Shown in pieces: positions 204 through 14,849 of a DNA stretch of 21,237 nt. The first letter of the stretch is position 1. Every line of letters starts with the position of its first letter. This stretch comes from a virus: the IMG/VR virus record IMGVR_UViG_3300043467_000316, positions 1-21,237 of that record; one strand, written 5' to 3'. Below the pieces are notes generated by a model. The model did no database searches. It was not told the origin of the DNA and worked only from the letters and a program-made list of their open reading frames with translations. The translations under genes and the position numbers were made by a program.

Positions 204-718
204 TGCTGACTCTACTCTCAACTCTTATCTCGTTCTTGATGGGTGGTTTGCCCAAGCTGTTGGATTTTTTCCAAGACAGGTCTGACAAAGCGCATGAGCT
301 AAACCTTGCCCAAATGCAAATTCAGCGCGAGTTGGAATTGCGCAAAGCAGGGTTTGAAGCCCAAGAGCGCATTGAACATATTCACACAGAACAGTTGGCA
401 ACTGAAAGCGCGGCGGCGACCAGTCAAGCCCTTATTGGCGCACAGCAGGCTGAGATGCAGGCAATCTACGCCCATGACACCTCGCTTAATGAAGGCACTA
501 GCGAATGGATGAGAAACCTTCGCGCCAGCGTTCGCCCAGTCATTACCTATGGTTTCTTTTTCTTGCTAGTGTTTGTGGATGTGGGACTGTTTGCCTACGG
601 CTGGCACAATGGCGTTACGTTTGTAGAATTGGCTGAGATGCTGTGGGATTCTGACACCCAAGCGCTGTTTGCTTCAATCATTGCGTTCCACTTTGGTGGC
701 CGGGCGTTTGGCAAATGA
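203..718 (+). CDS. Holin, three-TM (GTA-type) family
   Basis: A 171-residue membrane protein that probably forms the inner-membrane lesion releasing the endolysin. A hydrophobic N-terminal stretch (about residues 1-22) is followed by a long charged helical region (about 28-90). Two further hydrophobic segments lie at about 112-134 and 153-169. The RASVRPVITYG motif just before the second segment, and the overall layout, match the family called holin of 3TMs for gene-transfer release. It overlaps the preceding gene as TAATG, and its stop overlaps the lysozyme start as ATGA, giving a coupled holin-endolysin cassette. The soluble coiled middle is normal for this family. No separate spanin gene is visible nearby. 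Family recognition is from sequence pattern; lytic function follows from family and neighbour. Confidence 0.85.
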   Translation: MLTLLSTLISFLMGGLPKLLDFFQDRSDKAHELNLAQMQIQRELELRKAGFEAQERIEHIHTEQLATESAAATSQALIGAQQAEMQAIYAHDTSLNEGTSEWMRNLRASVRPVITYGFFFLLVFVDVGLFAYGWHNGVTFVELAEMLWDSDTQALFASIIAFHFGGRAFGK

Positions 719-1191
719 ACATCTCTGACAAGTGCCTGCACATGATTCGCCACCATGAGGGGGTGCGTCAGAACCCGTATAAATGCCCAGCAAAGTTGTG
801 GACTGTGGGGGTCGGGCATGTTATGTTTCCAGAGCAGGGTAAGCTAAAGATTGACGACCGTGACGCATTCCAACCACCCGCCGAAGCCATGCGGAAATAC
901 AGCATGGAGGAAGTAAATGCAATACTTAGAGCAGATTTGGACAGATTTGAGCGGGGAGTGGAACGTTACTGCCCTGTTGCACTTACACAAGGTATGTTTG
1001 ATGGCCTTGTTAGTTTTAGTTTTAATGTCGGTTTGGGAACGCTACAGCGCTCTACGCTTCGTCAAAAGGTTATTAGAGGCGATAAAGAAGGCGCGGCAGA
1101 AGAACTCTTAAAGTATTGCATGGCCGGCGGCAAAGTCCTTAAAGGACTTCAAAACCGCCGGATTGATGAGCGCGCATTATTCCTTAGTTAG
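715..1191 (+). CDS. Endolysin, GH24 phage lysozyme
   Basis: A 158-residue muramidase that cleaves the MurNAc-GlcNAc bond of peptidoglycan. The catalytic layout is E15, then eight residues, C24, then five residues, T30 (within TVGVGH). This is the E-8-[D/C]-5-T pattern of the P1/P22/R21 group, with cysteine in the middle position. The typical C-terminal substrate-lobe motif follows (FSFNVGLGTLQRSTLRQK, about residues 101-118). The catalytic glutamate is only 15 residues from the start and there is no SAR or signal peptide, so export should depend on the overlapping holin gene. Its last 15 bases overlap the 3' end of a leftward gene, so two operons converge inside coding sequence. Confidence 0.93.
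   Translation: MNISDKCLHMIRHHEGVRQNPYKCPAKLWTVGVGHVMFPEQGKLKIDDRDAFQPPAEAMRKYSMEEVNAILRADLDRFERGVERYCPVALTQGMFDGLVSFSFNVGLGTLQRSTLRQKVIRGDKEGAAEELLKYCMAGGKVLKGLQNRRIDERALFLS
1124..1161. other. Nested inverted repeat in the 3' end of the lysozyme gene
   Basis: Outer arms CCGGCGG (1124-1130) and CCGCCGG (1155-1161) enclose an inner near-perfect arm pair AAGTCCTT (1133-1140) and AAGGACTT (1142-1149). The RNA from either strand can fold into this two-step hairpin. It lies about 16-50 bases from the point where the rightward lysis genes and the leftward 4050-1177 operon run into each other, so it may act as a pause or termination element. There is no clear U-tract on either side, so it is not a canonical intrinsic terminator. 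It could also be chance within coding sequence. Confidence 0.5.
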
Positions 1192-4132: not shown

Positions 4133-5260
4133 ATGCTTCACTCAAATATCGTCGGCGGCTCTACAGCAAAGCGCGTCATTAACTGCCCAGGCAGTGTGGC
4201 GCTGGTGCAGAAGATGCCGCCTAAGCCTTCAAACAAATATGCTGACGAAGGCACACTCCTACACAACGTCATGGCTGAACTTATCATGGGCGACGAAGCC
4301 CCTGAGCATTACCTTGGCGCGCGTTACGAAGATCAGATCCTCACGCAAGAATTGATCGACAACAAAATTAAACCAGCACTGGAAGCATTAGATGCAATCG
4401 ACCCCAAACGTGTCATGGAAATCGAGGCCGAGACACACGTCAATTTTGGTGACTTGTTGCCTGGGGTTTTTGGCTCTACTGACCTTATCGGTCGTCTTGG
4501 CTCTCGTGCCGTTGTATTGGATTGGAAGTTTGGTGATGGCGTTATGGTTGAGGTTGAAGAAAACCCGCAGCTGATGTTCTACGCCGCAGCTGCTATGCGC
4601 ACGCCAGAAGCGCAATGGGCGTTTGAAGGTGTCACTGAAATTGAGATGGTTATTGTGCAGCCGCCTGAAGTGCGCCGCTGGGTGACAACGCCTGCGCGCA
4701 TCGCTGAGTTTGAATTGCAGTTGGTGCAGGCCGTCAAGCAGGCAGAAAAGCCAGACGCTAAGCTGGCCGTTGGTGACCACTGCAAGTGGTGCGCGGCCAA
4801 GCCCGTGTGCCCTAAGATGACCGGCGCTGCTGACCGCGCATTGAAAGTGCAGATCGAAGCGTTGCCGGCGCCGCAAATTAGCGACTACCTCAAGACCGCT
4901 GACATGCTAGAAGACTGGATCAAAGACCTGCGCGCTCTTGCCTTGCAGATGCTTGAGTCTGGCGCCAAGTTACCCGAATACAAACTGGTGGCCAAGCGTG
5001 CCATCCGGTCATGGTCAGACGACGAGAAAGCGAAAGTCGCTTTGTTTGCGTATGGCCTCACAGAATCTGAAGTGATGGAGACAACTGTCGTCTCCCCCGC
5101 GAAGGCCGAAAAGGCGCTCAAAAAGCGCAAGATCGGCCTACCGGAAGACCTCGTGGTCGCCATCTCGTCAGGTAACACTTTGGCAAACGTGGATGATCCA
5201 CGACCCGAAGTGATGCTCTTGGGCAAACAGTTATCTGCTGCCCTTTCTAAACTACAGTAA
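4133..5260 (+). CDS. DUF2800-like RecB/Cas4-type nuclease
   Basis: A 375-residue protein of the DUF2800 type, a PD-(D/E)xK fold found in phage replication modules. Core nuclease motifs are H44 in EGTLLH, D117 in FGSTD, D130-W-K132 in VVLDWKFG, and Q146 in NPQLMFY. Four cysteines (C18, and C217, C220, C226 in CKWCAAKPVC) are placed as in AddB and Cas4 nucleases, where they hold a 4Fe-4S cluster. The ATG at 4133 is preferred over an upstream one at 4097 because AAAGGA precedes it and the conserved start is INCPGS. It is the first rightward gene, followed by the 218-aa gene after eight bases. The likely role is end processing in replication or recombination; the exact activity is unproven. Confidence 0.82.
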   Translation: MLHSNIVGGSTAKRVINCPGSVALVQKMPPKPSNKYADEGTLLHNVMAELIMGDEAPEHYLGARYEDQILTQELIDNKIKPALEALDAIDPKRVMEIEAETHVNFGDLLPGVFGSTDLIGRLGSRAVVLDWKFGDGVMVEVEENPQLMFYAAAAMRTPEAQWAFEGVTEIEMVIVQPPEVRRWVTTPARIAEFELQLVQAVKQAEKPDAKLAVGDHCKWCAAKPVCPKMTGAADRALKVQIEALPAPQISDYLKTADMLEDWIKDLRALALQMLESGAKLPEYKLVAKRAIRSWSDDEKAKVALFAYGLTESEVMETTVVSPAKAEKALKKRKIGLPEDLVVAISSGNTLANVDDPRPEVMLLGKQLSAALSKLQ

Positions 5261-5268
5261 GGAAAATC

Positions 5269-5925
5269 ATGTCAAATTTAGTAACCTTCTCTCAAGCAAA
5301 CTTGCCTGCCGTTTCAACCTTGTCTAGCGCTTTGCGTTCGATCCAAGCCGAGGTCGGCCCAGCTGGTGTTGTCATCATCAAGATGGACAAGACTGGCCAC
5401 TGGGTCTTTGGTGCAGATCAAACCGAAGTTGAAGACGACGCAGTCTGGGCTGTCAACCCTTTTTCATTTGTGCACGGTTTCATCGCCTGGGGCGACGGTG
5501 AAGTGCTAGGTGAGAAGATGGTATCTGTCAGCTCACCTTTGCCTGAGTTGGATGAGGCACCGCCCCAAGCTAAAAAAGGTTGGGAAACTCAAGTCGGTAT
5601 GTCACTCAAGTGCATCTCTGGCGAAGACAAGGGCATGGAAGCGCGCTTCACCACCACGTCAGTGGGCGGTAAGCGTGCAGTTCAGACCTTGGCCGTGGCC
5701 TTGGCCGAGCAAGTTGAGAAAGACCAAGCCAAGCCAGTGCCTGTTGTGCGTCTGAAGAAAGACCACTACGCCCACAAATCCTACGGCAAGATTTACACGC
5801 CAGTGTTTGAAGTTGTCGAGTGGGTGAGCATGGATGGCGAAGCGCCCAAAGCAGACGAGCCAGCATGGCCAACTGCCGAACAGGAAGCTGCCAAGGCGCC
5901 TGCGCGCCGCCGCCGTTCAGCGTAA
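5269..5925 (+). CDS. Conserved phage protein, candidate ssDNA-binding/replication accessory
   Basis: A 218-residue protein with a compact N-terminal domain (VGPAGVVIIKMDKTGHWVFG, about residues 29-48, then WAVNPFSFVHGFIAWGDGEV) and a likely second beta-rich domain around residues 105-185. A low-complexity tail ends in RRRR. It has a GGAAA-type RBS seven bases before its ATG and follows the DUF2800-like gene by eight bases. In many phages the gene next to a DUF2800 protein encodes a single-strand DNA-binding protein (DUF2815 type). This sequence is not obviously that family, so the role is inferred from position only. The basic tail is unlike the acidic tail of bacterial SSB. Confidence 0.6.
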   Translation: MSNLVTFSQANLPAVSTLSSALRSIQAEVGPAGVVIIKMDKTGHWVFGADQTEVEDDAVWAVNPFSFVHGFIAWGDGEVLGEKMVSVSSPLPELDEAPPQAKKGWETQVGMSLKCISGEDKGMEARFTTTSVGGKRAVQTLAVALAEQVEKDQAKPVPVVRLKKDHYAHKSYGKIYTPVFEVVEWVSMDGEAPKADEPAWPTAEQEAAKAPARRRRSA

Positions 5926-5933
5926 CTTTTCTG

Positions 5934-5954
5934 ATGGGCGTTATGAGCGCCCAT
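5934..5954 (+). promoter_or_regulatory. RNA hairpin upstream of the Mom-like gene
   Basis: ATGGGCG (5934-5940) and CGCCCAT (5948-5954) form a perfect 7-bp stem with a 7-base loop. The hairpin sits in the short gap after the 218-aa gene. It ends three bases before the AAAGGAG ribosome-binding site (5958-5964) of the Mom-like gene. No U-tract follows, so a terminator is unlikely. Mu mom is controlled at translation through RNA stems near its RBS, so a regulatory role is a reasonable but untested inference. Confidence 0.45.
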
Positions 5955-5972
5955 TGGAAAGGAGACACTACA

Positions 5973-6539
5973 TTGAAGTCATATTCTGTTCGGCCAATTT
6001 TGTACGCGGATACAAAGCCTTTCATTTTGGATTTGCATTACGCTAAACGAATGCCGTCGGTGAGTTTTGCGTTTGGTTTATTTTTAACTGACGCGCTTGT
6101 TGGCGTGGTTACGTATGGGATGCCTGCGTCGCCGTGGCTTTGCAAAGGCATTTGTGGAAATGACAATCGACATTTGGTTCTTGAATTAAACAGGTTAGTG
6201 TTGACAAACAATATAAAAAACGAAGCATCTCTTTTGGTAGGGCGTTCCTTGGCCATGTTACCCACACCGCGTGTAATTGTTTCATACGCGGATACCGCGC
6301 AAGGCCACGTCGGGGTTGTGTACCAAGCGTGTAATTTTTTATTTACCGGCACCACAAAACCTCGAACAGACATGGCCGCAAAAGATGGCAAGCATAGCCG
6401 GCACCACTCTGGCGATAAAACAAACCGTGTCGCCCGTTCTGCAAAACATAGGTATGTAACTTTTATAGGTTCTAAAAAAGAAGCCGCCCCATTACGCGCC
6501 GCATTGCAATATCCAACATTAAAATACCCTAAAAAATGA
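5973..6539 (+). CDS. mom: Mom-like adenine modification protein (GNAT-type)
   Basis: A 188-residue protein resembling the Mom family of phage Mu, which converts DNA adenine to a carbamoylmethyl form and shields phage DNA from restriction. Family-type segments are HYAKRMPSVSFAFGLF (22-37), VGVVTYGMPASP (43-54), VLELNRLVL (69-77) and SYADTAQGHVGVVYQACNF (104-122), the last corresponding to a GNAT-like core. The C-terminal tail is basic, as expected for DNA contact. The start is a TTG at 5973, chosen because AAAGGAGA lies about eight bases upstream and the family's sequence starts there; longer in-frame starts at 5820, 5934 or 5943 add sequence that overlaps the previous gene or its hairpin. A TTG may limit expression of a potentially toxic enzyme. 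The stop overlaps the polymerase start as ATGA. Confidence 0.8.
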   Translation: MKSYSVRPILYADTKPFILDLHYAKRMPSVSFAFGLFLTDALVGVVTYGMPASPWLCKGICGNDNRHLVLELNRLVLTNNIKNEASLLVGRSLAMLPTPRVIVSYADTAQGHVGVVYQACNFLFTGTTKPRTDMAAKDGKHSRHHSGDKTNRVARSAKHRYVTFIGSKKEAAPLRAALQYPTLKYPKK

Positions 6540-8434
6540 CACTCTGGTTAGATTTTGAAACGCGCAGTATGTGCGACCTACGCTCTAAGGGCGTATACAA
6601 CTACGCTCAGGATGCCAGTACCGATGTGCTGTGCATGTCGTATGCGTTTGATGACGAAGACGTGGTGACGTGGATACCGTCTGAGCCATTCCCTGAGCGC
6701 GTGCGCAGTTACACCGGCCAGATTAGGGCGCACAACGCAGCGTTTGAGCGCTTGATTTTTTGGTACGTGTTGCAGATTGATTTTAAGTTAGAACAGTTTT
6801 ATTGCACTGCAACACAAGCCCGTGCCAACTGCGCGCCGGGCAGTTTGGAAGACGTTGGCCGCTTTGCTGGCGCGTCCATGAAAAAAGACCACAGAGGCGC
6901 GCAACTGATTCGCCTTATGTGTGTGCCGCCATTTAAAGACTCGCCTGAGCTTAGGCAAGAGATGATCAAGTATTGCGAGCAAGACGTGCGCGCCATGCGT
7001 GCGATCAGCAAGGGCATGCGTGACCTCAGCGATGAGGAGCTGCTGGACTATCACGTCAACGAGCAGATCAACGACCGTGGCGTGCTGGTGGACGTGCCGC
7101 TGTGCCACGCCGCAGTCAAGTACGCGTCAGACGAGTTAATTGAGATTGAAGAAATTGTCAAGGAAGTTACCGAGGGCGCTATCACCAGCGTTCGCAGCCC
7201 CCGCATGCGTGAGTGGGTCTGGGATCGCGTGGACGAGGAAGCGCGCAAGCTGATGCAAAAGGACGACAAGGTCAGCATTGACAAAACCGTAAGAGCCAAC
7301 CTTTTAAACTGTGATGGAGTACCACCCGATGTTCAAGAAGTTATCCAATGCGCAGACGACCTCTGGGCTTCGTCAGTCGCAAAATTCAGTCGACTTGCAG
7401 CTTTGGCAGATATTGAAGATGAGCGAGTCCGAGGAGCGTTTGTATTTGCAGGCGGTTCAGCAACAGGACGCGCATCGTCCTACGGCGCCCAAGTTCACAA
7501 CTTCACCCGCAAGTGCGCTGAAAAGCCCGACGACGTCAGGCAAGCTATGGTCAGAGGGCACGCAATCGTGCCTCGGTATGGAAAGCGCGTTACCGATGTT
7601 CTCAAAGGAATGCTCAGGCCCGCCATCATCCCCGCCGCAGGCAAGCACCTTGTGGTTGCCGACTGGGCGGCCATTGAAGCGCGGGTCAACCCGTGGCTCT
7701 CAGGACGAGGTGCCGATAAACTGGAACTATTCCGCAGTGGGGAAGACGTCTATAAAGTTAATGCAGCCGCGACGTTCAACATTCGCGTCGATGACGTCAC
7801 CAAAGACCAGCGCCAGATCGGTAAGGTTCAAGAACTTGCCTGTGGATTTGCTGGCGGCGTGGGCGCTTTTGCTGCTATGGGTCGGGCTTATGGGATCAGT
7901 CTTCCTGAGCCGGTTGCCAAACGCATGGTTGATGGCTGGCGCCGTGCTAATCCTTGGAGCGTACCTTATTGGTCGGCGCTTGAGGACGCATACACCCGAG
8001 CAATGCGAAACAAAGGGCGCGAGTTCAAAGCCGGCCTTATAACATATTTATACGATGGCCTGCACCTGTGGTATGCCCTACCCTCTGGCCGCATTTTGTG
8101 CTACCCCTATGCCAAACTGGAATCAGAGGGCGTCAGTTATGCCAAAGCGGCATGGAAGCCAGCGCAAGATGCAAAAGAATGGCCACGCGCCCGTCTATGG
8201 AAAGGCTTGGCATGTGAAAATGTAACGCAGGCAGTGGCCAACGACTTGCTTCGCCACGCCCTGCGCCAACTCGATGACGTTGTGCTGCATGTGCATGATG
8301 AAATCGTATTAGAGACGGCGAACCCCAACGCCGCAGAAGAATTAAAACGTGTGATGTGTACAGCGCCAGCGTGGGCCGATGGACTACCGCTCAACGCTGA
8401 AGTAGAAACTATGACCCGCTACGGAAAGGGCTGA
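6536..8434 (+). CDS. Family A DNA polymerase with 3'-5' exonuclease
   Basis: A 632-residue replicative polymerase, compact like phage PolA enzymes and lacking the 5' nuclease domain. Exonuclease motifs are intact: D6-F-E8 (Exo I), HNAAFE at 66-71 (Exo II) and Y146-CEQ-D150 (Exo III). Polymerase motifs follow: GRASSYGAQVHNF (311-323), motif A VVADWAAIEAR with D376 and E381, motif B DQRQIGKVQELACGF with R426 and K430, and motif C VHDE (586-589). The phenylalanine at about 438 replaces the motif-B tyrosine, as in some PolA enzymes. The start overlaps the Mom-like stop (ATGA), and an HNH gene begins one base after its stop. It should act with the downstream primase-helicase at the fork. Confidence 0.95.
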   Translation: MTLWLDFETRSMCDLRSKGVYNYAQDASTDVLCMSYAFDDEDVVTWIPSEPFPERVRSYTGQIRAHNAAFERLIFWYVLQIDFKLEQFYCTATQARANCAPGSLEDVGRFAGASMKKDHRGAQLIRLMCVPPFKDSPELRQEMIKYCEQDVRAMRAISKGMRDLSDEELLDYHVNEQINDRGVLVDVPLCHAAVKYASDELIEIEEIVKEVTEGAITSVRSPRMREWVWDRVDEEARKLMQKDDKVSIDKTVRANLLNCDGVPPDVQEVIQCADDLWASSVAKFSRLAALADIEDERVRGAFVFAGGSATGRASSYGAQVHNFTRKCAEKPDDVRQAMVRGHAIVPRYGKRVTDVLKGMLRPAIIPAAGKHLVVADWAAIEARVNPWLSGRGADKLELFRSGEDVYKVNAAATFNIRVDDVTKDQRQIGKVQELACGFAGGVGAFAAMGRAYGISLPEPVAKRMVDGWRRANPWSVPYWSALEDAYTRAMRNKGREFKAGLITYLYDGLHLWYALPSGRILCYPYAKLESEGVSYAKAAWKPAQDAKEWPRARLWKGLACENVTQAVANDLLRHALRQLDDVVLHVHDEIVLETANPNAAEELKRVMCTAPAWADGLPLNAEVETMTRYGKG

Positions 8435-8435
8435 C

Positions 8436-8819
8436 ATGACAGAACAATGGCGCGCAGTGCCAAATTTTGAAACGTATTACGAAGTTAGCGATCACGGAAA
8501 CGTGCGCTCGTTGCCCCGTCAGGTGCCGTATGGCCGACACAAAGGGGCGACGTATGTTGGCCGTGATTTAAAGCAGTTTGTAACAAACGATTATTTGAGC
8601 GTAAAACTGGCAAGAGGCGGCGTTACAAAAACAACGTATGTGCATGCGCTTGTATTGCAGGCGTTTGTGGGTGAGCGCCCAGTTACAGAGGATCGCGGTG
8701 AGATACGTCACCTTGATGGCGACAGAACAAACAACACGCTTTCCAACTTGCTTTATGGGACTGTGGTGGAAAACGGCGCAGACAGAGTTAAACATAACAA
8801 AATGAAGGCAACAGTATGA
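8436..8819 (+). CDS. HNH homing endonuclease with NUMOD4 domain
   Basis: A 127-residue protein starting with a NUMOD4-like segment (EQWRAVPNFETYYEVSDHG, about residues 3-21), which helps target DNA. An HNH-type catalytic segment follows (EIRHLDGDRTNNTLSNLLYG, about residues 90-109, with H93, D95 and the NN pair). Such proteins nick or cut a specific site and spread into phages lacking them. It sits exactly between polymerase and primase-helicase genes: one base after the polymerase stop, and its own stop overlaps the next ATG as ATGA. No intron or intein disrupts the neighbours, so it is free-standing. It has no strong RBS of its own and probably relies on coupling. Base composition is lower in GC than the primase-helicase gene. 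Confidence 0.88.
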   Translation: MTEQWRAVPNFETYYEVSDHGNVRSLPRQVPYGRHKGATYVGRDLKQFVTNDYLSVKLARGGVTKTTYVHALVLQAFVGERPVTEDRGEIRHLDGDRTNNTLSNLLYGTVVENGADRVKHNKMKATV

Positions 8820-11104
8820 ACTTTCTTGATTTTTTAATTTCTTTGGCCCCCGAGGGCGAGACTGCGCTGATCGTGCGTCAGAAGCCCATTGGCAAAGAAC
8901 TGCAATTCCATGCTGACGGCGCGATCAAATGCACATGGCCGGCTATGTTGCCTACCGCACGCATCAAAGACGACTGGGCAATCTACGGCAACACGGCCAG
9001 CTTTATCATTGACCGCTTTAAAGATGGCCACGTCTCCGCGTCTGCGATTAACTGTGAGTATGTGCTTGTCATGGTGTTGGATGACGTGGGCACAAAGGCG
9101 GCCATTCCACCACTTGAGCCGACTTGGAAAATTGAGACGTCTGAAGGGTCATTTCAGTGGGGCTATGCCTTCTCAGACCAGCCCACCAAAGCCGACTTTA
9201 GCGCGGCCATCAAAGCCATCGCCGACGCAGGCTACACCGACAAGGGCGCAATCAACGCCGTGCGCAATTTCCGCTTGCCTGGTTCAATCAATCTGAAACC
9301 CGACCGCAACAACTTCGCCGCCAAGTTGGTGGAGTTTCACCCCTCGCGTGACTTTACCCTTGACCAAATTTGTGACGCGCTTGGCGTCGTCCCCGCGCCC
9401 GCTGACTCTGTTGGATTTAAGCCTATCCGCTTGTCAGACGACGGCGCCGACGATGTGATGGCGTGGCTTAGTGGTCAAGGTCTGTTGCTGTCAAAACCCA
9501 ATCAAGAGGGCTGGGCTGGCGTGATCTGCCCCAACTCAGCCGAGCATACCGACGGCAACCCTGAAGGCCGTTACATGCCCGCCAACCGCGCCTACTGCTG
9601 CCTGCACAGCCACTGCGTCGAGTTTGGCTCATCGCTGTTTTTGCAGTGGGTGTCAGATAACGGCGGCCCCAAGCACGCCCCTGGCTTACGTGATGAGCTA
9701 CTGACCTTGGCCATGGATCAGGCGCTGTCCAAAATTAAGCCAACCGAGGCGTTCCCTGACGCGGCGGCGGCCATCATCGCCGAGGTCGAGCGCAAAGAAC
9801 TGGGCCGCGTTCAAAAGGCGCAGTGGTATGAGCGCTTCGCCTACATTCAAGACGATGAGTCTTATTTTGACATGCAAGACCGCCGCGAAGTTTCCCGGTC
9901 GACTTTCAACGCGTTGTATCGTCACATATCTTGCAATTCGATCCATGGCAAGCGCCCCAAGGTCGAGGCGTCAATTTGCTTTGATGAGAACCGCCAGGAA
10001 TGCGGCGCCAAAGCGCTTGTGGGGATCACTTACGCCGCCGGCGAGTCGGTCATTGTGGCCCGCGACGGTGACCTCTACGGCAACCGCTGGCGCGACGCCC
10101 GCCCCCCAGTGGCCGCCGGTGATGTGAGGCCGTGGATGGATCACTGCAAAACCCTTGTGCCTGACCAGCGCGAGCTTGACCACGTCTTAAACGTGATGGC
10201 CTTTAAACTTCAGCACCCGAACGTCAAGATCAATCATGCCGTGCTTCATGGTGGTGACCAAGGCTCAGGCAAGGACACCATGTGGGCGCCGTTCATTTGG
10301 GCCGTGTGTGGCCCCCACCTTAAGAACCGTGGCCTGCTGGACAATGACACCATGTCGTCGCAGTTTGGTTATGCCCTTGAATCTGAAATTTTAATTTTGA
10401 ATGAGTTGAAAGAGCCCGACGCGAAGGAAAGGAGAGCATTAGCAAATAAACTAAAGCCCATCATCGCCGCGCCCCCTGAGATGCTGACCGTCAACCGTAA
10501 GGGCCTGCACCCTTACCAAATGGCGAACCGCGTGTTTGTGCTGGCCTTTTCCAACGACCCCGTGCCCATCTCGCTAGATTCCCAAGACCGCCGCTGGATG
10601 TGCATTTGGTCGCACGCCCCCCGCATGACCACCGACGCCGCCGCCCGTATGTGGGCATGGTACAAAGCCGGCGGGTTTGCGGCCGTGGGCGCCTGGCTGA
10701 TGGCCCGCGACGTCTCCGCGTTTAACCCCGGCGCTGCGCCCATGATGACAGAATTCAAATTGAACTTGGTCGAACATGGCATGAGCATGGCCGAATCGTA
10801 CTTGGTGGAACTGATGCGCGGGCGCCTGGGTGAATTTTCAAAAGGCGTCGTGGCGTCCCCCTTCCATGCACTGTGTGACCGCGTGGCTGGCGCTGCGCCC
10901 GCCGGCGTGAAAGTCCCGCAGCCCGCCCTTCTGCACGCGCTCAAAGAAGCCGGCTGGGTGGATCTCGGGCGCGTGGCGTCCGGTGACTTCCAAAGCAAAA
11001 AACACATGTTTTGCGCGCCCGAGATGGCCAGCCGGCCAAAGTCAGAGCTGCGCCGCATGGTCGAAGATATACCGGCGCCCTTGGCCGTGCGCTTGGTGAA
11101 GTGA
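8816..11104 (+). CDS. Primase-helicase (RepB-like primase N-terminus, DUF5906 helicase)
   Basis: A 762-residue two-part replication protein. The N-terminal part carries a RepB-like primase pattern: D89-D90-VGTK, ETSEGSFQWGY (107-117) and RLPGSINLK (153-161). A cysteine/histidine cluster (ICPNSAEH and CCLHSHC, about residues 238-262) may bind zinc. The C-terminal part is a superfamily 3-like helicase of the DUF5906 type: Walker A GGDQGSGKDT (479-488), a downstream ILNELKEP segment, and DRRW near residue 592, the usual sensor/arginine-finger region. It would prime and unwind DNA for the PolA enzyme. The ATG overlaps the HNH stop. Codon use is strongly C/G-ending, unlike the tail-fibre gene. Confidence 0.88.
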   Translation: MNFLDFLISLAPEGETALIVRQKPIGKELQFHADGAIKCTWPAMLPTARIKDDWAIYGNTASFIIDRFKDGHVSASAINCEYVLVMVLDDVGTKAAIPPLEPTWKIETSEGSFQWGYAFSDQPTKADFSAAIKAIADAGYTDKGAINAVRNFRLPGSINLKPDRNNFAAKLVEFHPSRDFTLDQICDALGVVPAPADSVGFKPIRLSDDGADDVMAWLSGQGLLLSKPNQEGWAGVICPNSAEHTDGNPEGRYMPANRAYCCLHSHCVEFGSSLFLQWVSDNGGPKHAPGLRDELLTLAMDQALSKIKPTEAFPDAAAAIIAEVERKELGRVQKAQWYERFAYIQDDESYFDMQDRREVSRSTFNALYRHISCNSIHGKRPKVEASICFDENRQECGAKALVGITYAAGESVIVARDGDLYGNRWRDARPPVAAGDVRPWMDHCKTLVPDQRELDHVLNVMAFKLQHPNVKINHAVLHGGDQGSGKDTMWAPFIWAVCGPHLKNRGLLDNDTMSSQFGYALESEILILNELKEPDAKERRALANKLKPIIAAPPEMLTVNRKGLHPYQMANRVFVLAFSNDPVPISLDSQDRRWMCIWSHAPRMTTDAAARMWAWYKAGGFAAVGAWLMARDVSAFNPGAAPMMTEFKLNLVEHGMSMAESYLVELMRGRLGEFSKGVVASPFHALCDRVAGAAPAGVKVPQPALLHALKEAGWVDLGRVASGDFQSKKHMFCAPEMASRPKSELRRMVEDIPAPLAVRLVK

Positions 11105-13820: not shown

Positions 13821-13825
13821 GTCAA
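13798..13825 (-). promoter_or_regulatory. Strong leftward early promoter
   Basis: Read leftward, a perfect TTGACA (13825-13820) is followed after 16 bases by TACACT (13803-13798), a strong sigma-70-type promoter. It should give a leader of about 45 bases to the 57-aa gene and drive the operon down to the terminator at 11138-11161. The spacer is largely made of an inverted repeat, described separately. Confidence 0.8.
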
Positions 13826-13848: not shown

Positions 13849-14121
13849 ATTAGCATAATCTTGGGTCATTTGGGTCACGATTAGGTTATGCATTCGCGCG
13901 ACGATGACCTAAGCGCTAGCGCGCGCCAATACTGGGGATCTTTATGCTTTGGGTCATTTGGGTCATTGATTCTAGATAATAAAGTTAAAGAAAAGTACTG
14001 TATATAAAGACAGTGTAACGCTAGGTTGACGACTCTACCGGCGCCAATTTTAAAACGATGACCAAATGACCCAAATGACCCAAAGCCGGTTATCACCCTG
14101 GGCGCCAGATCTGCGCTATTA

Positions 14122-14161
14122 GGTCATTTGGGTCATATAAAAACACATGACCCAAATGACC
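14122..14161. repeat. Inverted repeat formed by blocks D and E
   Basis: Blocks D and E face away from each other and make perfect 14-bp inverted arms (14122-14135 and 14148-14161) around a 12-base AT-rich centre, TATAAAAACACA. Extruded as a cruciform, or folded as single-stranded DNA, this is a strong stem-loop and is the symmetric centre of the array. Confidence 0.75.
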
Positions 14162-14217
14162 CAAATGAAGGGTCACACCTAAAAACATATGACCCAAATG
14201 ACCCAAAGACCAGCGGC

Positions 14218-14235
14218 CATGCTGGCGCCAGCATG
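14218..14235. repeat. Perfect 18-bp palindrome between repeat blocks F and G
   Basis: CATGCTGGCGCCAGCATG is fully self-complementary over 18 bases. It is the strongest palindrome in the region and includes the GGCGCC hexamer that is frequent in this part of the genome. It could be a dimeric-protein site or a cruciform element. Confidence 0.7.
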
Positions 14236-14309
14236 CAATTTAAAACCGTGACCCAAATGACCCAAATGACCCAAAGGCTAGCAAGCACATAAAAATAACC
14301 ACAATGCTA

Positions 14310-14327
14310 GGAGGGGGATGGGTAGGG
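14310..14327 (+). other. G-rich tract next to the repeat array
   Basis: The stretch reads GGAGGGGGATGGGTAGGG: one GG, one G5 and two G3 runs separated by one or two bases. It could form a two-layer G-quadruplex on the rightward strand. It lies about 35 bases after the last repeat block and upstream of the packaging operon. Confidence 0.4.
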
Positions 14328-14362
14328 CCGGCGGCATAGGGCCTGCGAAAACGTACGGGCCG

Positions 14363-14390
14363 TGAACAAAATTTTTTTATTGTGTAGAAT
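14363..14390 (+). promoter_or_regulatory. Candidate rightward promoter for packaging genes
   Basis: TAGAAT (14385-14390) is a good -10 element. A weak -35, TGAACA (14363-14368), lies 16 bases before it, with an A/T-rich spacer (AAATTTTTTTATT). The first gene, small terminase, starts 31 bases later. A late phage promoter may not need a consensus -35, so the call is tentative. Confidence 0.4.
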
Positions 14391-14420: not shown

Positions 14421-14849
14421 ATGTTCTATTCAATTCCATTCACGCCGCGCAATGTGCAGGCGACAGAGTCACGCTTAAAGGCGGTATATGACGCCGCCAA
14501 GCTGGGCCTTAAAGGCGATTCCTTAGCCTTAGCCGCCGGCATGCTGCCCACCGAATACCGACAACTCACGCAACTTGACCCCGTTGTGGAGATAGCTGCG
14601 CAAAAAGGCAAAGCCGACGGTGAGATTGAGATGGCCAAGATTGTCAGGAGCGCCGCGTTAGAGGGCGACGCTAAGATGGCGCTAGAAGTCTTAAAGCACC
14701 AGCACGGCTGGGTGGCCAAGCAGGCCATATCTGTCGAAGTGGATCAGCGCATATCCATCACTGGCGCGCTGGCCGAAGCGGCCAAGAGGCTAGATGTGAT
14801 TGACGTACAGGCCAAGGAGCAAGATGCAATCGACCATATACAGCGCTGA
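14421..14849 (+). CDS. Small terminase subunit (candidate)
   Basis: A 142-residue protein immediately upstream of, and overlapping by 26 bases, the large terminase gene. Its N-terminal part (VYDAAKLGLKGDSLALAAG, about residues 23-41) can form a DNA-binding HTH. A helical, oligomerisation-type middle follows (KGKADGEIEMAKIVRSAALE, about 63-82), then QHGWVAKQ and a coiled C-terminus. This layout is usual for TerS, which recognises the packaging site and stimulates the large subunit. The ATG at 14421 has a GGAGAG box five to eight bases upstream. The identity rests mainly on layout and position. Confidence 0.8.
   Translation: MFYSIPFTPRNVQATESRLKAVYDAAKLGLKGDSLALAAGMLPTEYRQLTQLDPVVEIAAQKGKADGEIEMAKIVRSAALEGDAKMALEVLKHQHGWVAKQAISVEVDQRISITGALAEAAKRLDVIDVQAKEQDAIDHIQR

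Follow-up and report, generated by a model that had tools for sequence, protein, structure and literature searches.

The array of short tandem repeats in front of the small terminase gene of this phage is most probably a replication origin, whose iterons the phage's own primase-helicase would bind through its C-terminal winged helix; we put the probability of this reading at about 0.86. Among relatives the 9-mer of which the array is built has been replaced some forty times, and nearly every replacement goes with changes in a few residues at the tip of the primase-helicase. The window is the whole stretch analysed, a virus record of 21,237 bases that is incomplete, part of the genome being missing.

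The repeat array and its surroundings

Sixteen units of TGACCCAAA, 13 exact and three degenerate, lie in seven blocks at 13860–14275. The array and its neighbouring elements are as follows (coordinates of the window).

13860..13877, minus strand: iteron block A, two units, one of them mismatched (degenerate TGACCCAAG at 13860, exact at 13869)
13948..13965, minus strand: iteron block B, two exact units (13948, 13957); left border of the melting segment
13969..14018, no strand: AT-rich least stable 50 bp, candidate DNA unwinding element between blocks B (leftward) and C (rightward)
14059..14084, plus strand: iteron block C, a short degenerate unit (TGACCAAA, one base short, at 14059) and two exact units (14067, 14076)
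14118..14135, minus strand: iteron block D, one degenerate unit (TGACCTAAT at 14118) and one exact unit (14127)
14148..14165, plus strand: iteron block E, two exact units (14148, 14157)
14190..14207, plus strand: iteron block F, two exact units (14190, 14199)
14249..14275, plus strand: iteron block G, three exact units (14249, 14258, 14267)
14307..14390, plus strand: G-rich block (GGAGGGGGATGGGTAGGGCCGGCGGC...), T-tract and promoter-like TGAACA-16-TAGAAT, conserved between array and TerS across unit types
14421..14849, plus strand: small terminase candidate (TerS), fixed neighbour of the array, rejected as its binder

The original prediction had counted 16 units in seven blocks, 13 of them exact, with A, B and D leftward and C, E, F and G rightward, and a recount by position agrees on every point. 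When one mismatch is allowed, the whole window holds 17 unit matches against 5.3 expected, a number that none of 100 dinucleotide shuffles reached, and exact units are confined to the array with zero elsewhere. The region is intergenic, as had been predicted, with leftward small genes that stop at about 13747 on one side and the rightward TerS, TerL and portal genes, beginning with TerS at 14421, on the other; the open reading frames that cross the array are a by-product of its repetitive sequence. TAAAA tracts, also predicted, are found 5–10 bp ahead of each of blocks C, E, F and G, and may possibly aid bending or melting. Such tracts, which in the window fall within 14059–14275, precede rightward blocks at a fixed short distance in two relatives with TTGTCCACA units (L148 and L210) as well. 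A Sigma70-like leftward promoter, TTGACA-16-TACACT, lies just left of block A at 13825–13798 on the minus strand, and L148 has a similar minus-strand promoter site (TTGACAGTGCAAAAGAATCCTTTACAAT). Rfam and tRNA scans of the window gave no matches.

Short tandem sites in mixed orientation can also be found in partition loci, and a partition or centromere-like site of a phage-plasmid, or else a CRISPR-like or selfish repeat, might look similar. Such an identity is extremely unlikely: no ParA- or ParB-like protein was seen in the 21-kb window of the incomplete record, the units have neither spacers nor mobile-element features, and they co-vary with the primase.

Conservation of the array and switching of its unit

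Viral contigs were scanned for TGACCCAAATGACCCAAA, and at least 119 stretches of DNA matched. About 98 of the 119 matches listed encode relatives of the window's TerS or TerL and belong to one phage family with a P22-like portal; with few exceptions these carry, directly upstream of TerS, an array of several units that is 250–440 bp long and has a strand pattern similar to that of the window, typically −−−++−−+++. The rest of the matches listed are mostly single unit pairs in unrelated contigs. The array lies upstream of TerS at a distance that is almost always 0.04–0.4 kb, and in the relatives' loci 557 exact units fall inside the array region before TerS versus 14 elsewhere, where about 7 are expected. 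The search of relatives that the original prediction had called for thus finds a conserved array, nearly always just before the small terminase gene and not randomly scattered. Dispersed repressor sites of the stoperator type were rejected on the same counts, together with the lack of any unit outside the array in the window.

Genomes of the family encode a P22-like portal, PolA, DUF2800, DUF2815, SNF2 and the primase-helicase, and full-length relatives measure 36–39 kb. The family is widespread, mostly uncultured and freshwater. Most of the metagenome-assembled (MAG) contigs bearing the phage were assigned to freshwater Beta- or Gammaproteobacteria, e.g. Rhodoferax, a binning that points weakly to freshwater Betaproteobacteria as hosts. 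Only one of 50,697 deposited phage records, MW202483, has a full-length primase-helicase of this kind, and comparison of the array DNA with deposited phages gave chance-level matches and nothing more.

Relatives were also fetched by TerL instead of by the repeat in order to expose other array types. The same spot upstream of TerS then proved to hold arrays of different 9-mers of the general form TnRYnnAnA, among them TTGTCCACA, TTGCCTACA, TGACTAACA, TAGCCAACA, TGACCCACA, TGACTCACA, TTGCCCACA, TAGCCCACA, TGGCACACA, TGACTTACA and TTGCTTACA, and in MW202483 the unit is TTGTTTACA. Positions 1, 7 and 9 (T, A, A) are fixed by the unit caller to set the phase, and an earlier caller without them returned the same unit families. 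Locus and layout are kept, but the unit itself switches between relatives, something that the original prediction could not have seen. A query with the primase C-terminus enlarged the sample to 307 loci. A confident tandem unit (caller threshold 5; shuffled regions reach at most 2.0) together with a readable wing is present in 190, and 108 of these are non-redundant. The unit has changed at least 42 times on a tree of relatives from which the wing columns were left out.

Four loci (L200, L159, L185 and L198) harbour a second repeat family (ACTAACTTA / TAAGTTAGT) beside TTGTCCACA units in the same intergenic region. Strings like ACTAACTTA were initially called as the unit of L200, a call that was rejected: the same array holds tandem TTGTCCACA, which fits its wing, KSR..D.

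The primase-helicase and its winged helix

The candidate initiator is encoded to the left of the array.

8816..11104, plus strand: primase-helicase, 762 aa, proposed origin initiator
10862..11065, plus strand: C-terminal winged helix, aa about 683–750, from AlphaFold models
10976..10999, plus strand: wing loop, aa 721–728, ASGDFQSK in the window's phage; residues 721, 723, 724 and 726 co-vary with the unit

The protein combines an AEP-like primase fold, zinc-binding cysteines, a D5/SF3-type helicase (DUF5906) and a C-terminal winged helix. DUF5906 is its only Pfam match; the Pfam search gave no Toprim domain, and the N-terminal fold matches AEP PrimPols. The helicase part matches that of NrS-1 by sequence (6k9c, E 6e-7) and by fold (1e-12), and the fold matches of the full model include the NrS-1 CTR, poxvirus D5/E5, ASFV PrimPol and PriRep1 (7pds), in addition to the AEP primases S-2L PrimPol and RepB'. 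An AlphaFold (AF2) model of aa 634–762 has a pLDDT of 80.6 with a core above 90, and the full-protein model has a pLDDT of 69 with weak interdomain confidence. Both models give the order helix, helix, strand, loop, strand, in which aa 721–728 form the loop, that is, the wing; the helix ahead of it (ALLHALKEAG) is conserved among relatives. In Foldseek/VIA searches the isolated domain matched only generic winged helices (Z up to 6.8), with no strong match of any kind, and the P4 origin-binding domain was absent from these matches.

Co-variation of wing and unit

Among the 108 non-redundant relatives, changes of the unit accompany changes at residues 721, 723, 724 and 726 of the primase-helicase. 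When all 330 C-terminal columns were ranked blind at matched background distance (<0.3), residues 721, 726 and 724 came out at the top, with 723 there or close to it. The top columns differ in 70–89% of pairs with different units versus 3–23% of pairs with the same unit, and for residue 721 the figures are 70–82% and 3–4%. The partial correlation with unit distance is 0.50 for the 10-aa window 717–726, compared with 0.003 for the median window and at most 0.12 off the wing. The best windows of TerS, TerL, PolA, DUF2815 and p11425 (the last compared over a small set of 32 loci) reach 0.12–0.22, where the wing on the same loci gives 0.31–0.57.

These figures bear on the idea that the array is a terminase recognition site (pac or cos) bound by TerS, which its almost invariable position 0.04–0.4 kb upstream of that gene would suit. 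That is very unlikely, given that a TerS 87% identical to the window's is found with TTGTCCACA arrays and TerS proteins only 57–61% identical are found with TGACCCAAA, and that the partial correlation of the best TerS window is 0.125, where the primase wing reaches 0.53 over the same loci. The separate conserved G-rich block is a better choice, and the segment 14307–14390 is a candidate pac/cos site plus rightward promoter.

The array might alternatively be the operator of a phage repressor or regulator that controls divergent promoters, leftward early and rightward packaging, as its place between divergent operons and the flanking promoter-like sites (13825–13798, minus strand; 14363–14390, plus strand) would allow; the primase-helicase could also autoregulate at the array. 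We regard an operator as unlikely. No small leftward gene is common to all array carriers: in 79 complete intervals the HTH ORF family is present in 35, the 252-aa family in 14 and the p11425 family in 64. Pfam and NCBIfam searches of the small genes gave no confident family. The covariation of p11425 is no better than background, and it is with the primase-helicase wing that the unit co-varies. Of the three candidate binders originally named, the primase-helicase is thus favoured by its wing, and the 53-aa HTH and 252-aa proteins, missing from most carriers, are rejected as universal binders; p11425 was likewise set aside for want of a co-variation signal.

The pairing of wings and units is regular. 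Arrays of TGACCCAAA go with ASGDYPS-like wings and those of TTGTCCACA with KSRxxDT, where K, R and D or E are present in 60 of 60 loci; TGACTCACA goes with KSRAHTT, TTGCCTACA with ASRxxST, TGACTAACA with MSRxYTS and TGGCACACA with HSRxFN. Residue 723 and base 8 of the unit are matched most closely, R with C in 80 of 81 cases and G with A in 21 of 21; S goes with T or A, and Q with G. An arginine facing C:G is the usual arginine–guanine contact on the other strand, which the pairing of R723 with C8 fits. Comparison of the sequences suggests a code in which R at 723 would read C, G would read A, Q would read G, and A, S, T and H would tend to T, with residues 721 and 726 probably reading bases 2–4 and 6.

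Diverged DnaA boxes, making the array an origin bound by the DnaA of the host, are another conceivable explanation: TTGTCCACA differs from the DnaA box TTATCCACA at a single position, and 41 of the 47 perfect boxes found occur in TTGTCCACA arrays. However, a perfect box (TTATNCACA) is found neither in the window's array nor in any of 22 TGACCCAAA loci, and sites resembling a DnaA box are no more frequent in the window than chance predicts. A switching of units in step with residues of a phage primase cannot be accounted for by the specificity of host DnaA, and recognition of the array by DnaA is highly improbable.

Shared ancestry, close pairs and exceptions

Ancestry was controlled for on a tree built without the wing columns. 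On this tree base 8 changes ten times and residue 723 nine times, and phylogenetically independent pairs are concordant for the three trait pairs at 6:0, 10.4:0 and 9.4:0. The unit of a locus is predicted from a relative more than 25% distant in 58% of cases by the wing window, against 31% by the whole C-terminus and 15% by the median window. In the 52 held-out loci with R723 there are 8.0 C8 units per locus, and no other base exceeds 2.9; the eight held-out loci with A723 favour T8. The A723 loci (wing ASADFKS, for example) have weakly called arrays of units ending in ATA, with T at base 8; they are a further specificity class, among loci outside those from which the code was derived.

Close pairs show how a unit may be switched. 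L184 and L206 are 96% identical outside the wing over the C-terminal 330 aa, the former combining ASRGYQ with TAGCCAACA and the latter KSRRHD with TTGTCCACA. L134 has the unit TGACTCACA and is close to the window in PolA (96%), TerL (93%) and TerS (86%), and its primase-helicase is 94–98% identical to the window's over aa 1–256 and 56–75% beyond. Because of this mosaic identity together with a different unit, some switches look like recombination of the helicase part. In five loci (L134, L135, L141, L142 and L145) the first 256 aa range from near-identical to closely similar to those of the window's protein, and the rest is about 60–70% identical. Such sequence comparisons suggest that recombination inside the primase-helicase gene accompanies unit switches.

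One exception is a 4.6-kb contig (L007/L279) that pairs an R723 wing (KSRAHTT) with a TGACCCAAA array and is either a recent recombinant or a chimeric assembly. Several one-base differences at unit positions 4–6 are also found between proteins with identical wings, and in view of both the recognition code is strong but partly degenerate. We think it rather likely that the wing constitutes a compact, swappable base-recognition code for the origin, whose specificity was changed dozens of times, either through point changes of the wing or through exchange of the helicase part, presumably avoiding cross-talk with co-infecting relatives or satellites.

Another primase, another array

Three relatives (L153, L156 and L172) have a TerL 84–85% identical to the window's and no recognisable copy of its primase. 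Their array is of the TTCGGTACA type and starts at the 3' end of the ORF before it. A protein of 682–685 aa, typed in L153 as Toprim + AAA_25, is encoded by L153 and L172. In L153 this gene spans 4378–6426, the array (6382–6666) begins within its 3' end, and TerS is of the Sf6 type. DSL-LC05, whose TerL is 69% identical, has an annotated primase/polymerase and CCCAGTGGGTCA-type repeats upstream of TerS; the window's primase-helicase was sought there without a match. The array thus goes with the replication protein and not with the terminase, since an unrelated primase accompanies an unrelated array despite a related TerL. In a Vibrio phage and a Thiohalocapsa phage that have helicase homologues, the densest repeats near the homologue lay at one place 5' of the helicase match and were uninformative.

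Layout of the probable origin and a proposed mechanism

A gap of at least 60 bp (median 101) separates a leftward from a rightward block in 84 of 100 non-redundant TerS-anchored arrays, and in 80 of these 84 the least stable 50 bp of the array lie inside the gap, where about 29% would be expected by length. The AT fraction there is 0.64 versus 0.50 around it. Computed as the original prediction had proposed, GC skew in ten relatives of 36–39 kb is weak and follows gene direction, with no clear switch at the array beyond it, and neither supports nor refutes an origin. That some 2.8 kb, including leftward genes, separate the array from the gene of the primase-helicase counts against the proposed reading. 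The prediction of a candidate origin or multi-site regulator with a specific binder nevertheless gains support from an array that is conserved, that co-varies base by base with the primase-helicase wing and that has an easily melted AT-rich segment at a fixed place, as judged from sequence comparison.

In such an origin the winged helix at the C-terminus of the primase-helicase would bind the 9-bp iterons. Its wing (aa 721–728) would read the variable bases, base 8 through residue 723 and bases 2–4 and 6 through residues 721 and 726, and the conserved helix would probably read the conserved T1, A7 and A9. On the two sides of the AT-rich segment, tandem blocks that face opposite ways would load two oppositely oriented helicase rings, which would melt about 13969–14018, and both strands would then be primed. 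The array with its conservation and layout, the switching of its unit, the soft segment, and the co-variation with its place on the wing are observed, whereas physical binding, helicase loading and bidirectional initiation are inferred.

Relation to known systems

The window has multiple short direct repeats in a non-coding region, an AT-rich melting segment between iteron blocks, and a self-encoded protein with primase, SF3/D5-type helicase and predicted C-terminal winged helix. By analogy with P4 alpha and with SaPI Rep / Cch2, we propose that the array may be an iteron origin onto which the primase-helicase loads itself. According to PMC4234260, the alpha protein of satellite phage P4 binds origin repeats through a winged helix, then unwinds and primes, and its primase is of the Toprim type. 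The likeness to P4 alpha and its ori repeats would lie in a self-loading primase-helicase with a winged helix and in an iteron origin. However, the unit sequence differs, the specificity residues of the window's protein lie in the wing, and its N-terminal fold matches AEP PrimPols; since the primase is AEP-like, it is not a member of the P4 alpha family proper.

SaPI Rep / PriRep1 and SCCmec Cch2 are described in PMC7581432 (citing Ubeda et al. 2007) as D5/SF3-type helicases whose C-terminal domain recognises a short-iteron origin, and PriRep1 (7pds) is among the fold matches of the window's protein. Their origins lie directly downstream of the rep gene, whereas the window's array is about 2.8 kb away before the terminase, and the accessible part of PMC7581432 describes no wing-to-base code. 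The NrS-1 phage polymerase, a PrimPol with a ring-shaped CTR, is the best sequence and fold match of the helicase part; its 8-nt recognition sequence is present twice in its genome (PMC7102993) without an iteron array, unlike the arrangement in the window. In geminiviruses the iterons and the Rep residues touching them change rapidly and in concert, the pairs being inferred by comparison, according to PMC12548392 (citing Arguello-Astorga and Ruiz-Medrano 2001). The speed of diversification is similar, but the parallel is conceptual only, as the geminivirus Reps are unrelated HUH rolling-circle initiators of ssDNA plant viruses.

The window's initiator would be itself a primase-helicase, and no O homologue was found in the window; the resemblance to the O protein of lambdoid phages, a phage-encoded initiator with iterons of matching specificities, is in the matching of initiator and iterons.

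A probable origin and its probable initiator are here assigned in a phage family that is widespread but has hardly any deposited representatives. Metagenomic diversity serves as a natural mutagenesis experiment, pointing to a code by which a handful of wing residues would specify bases of the origin repeat, and this code predicts that swapping four wing residues would change origin specificity. The finding raises the question of why origin specificity diversifies so fast within one phage family; one idea is that diversification avoids cross-initiation by co-infecting relatives or satellites.
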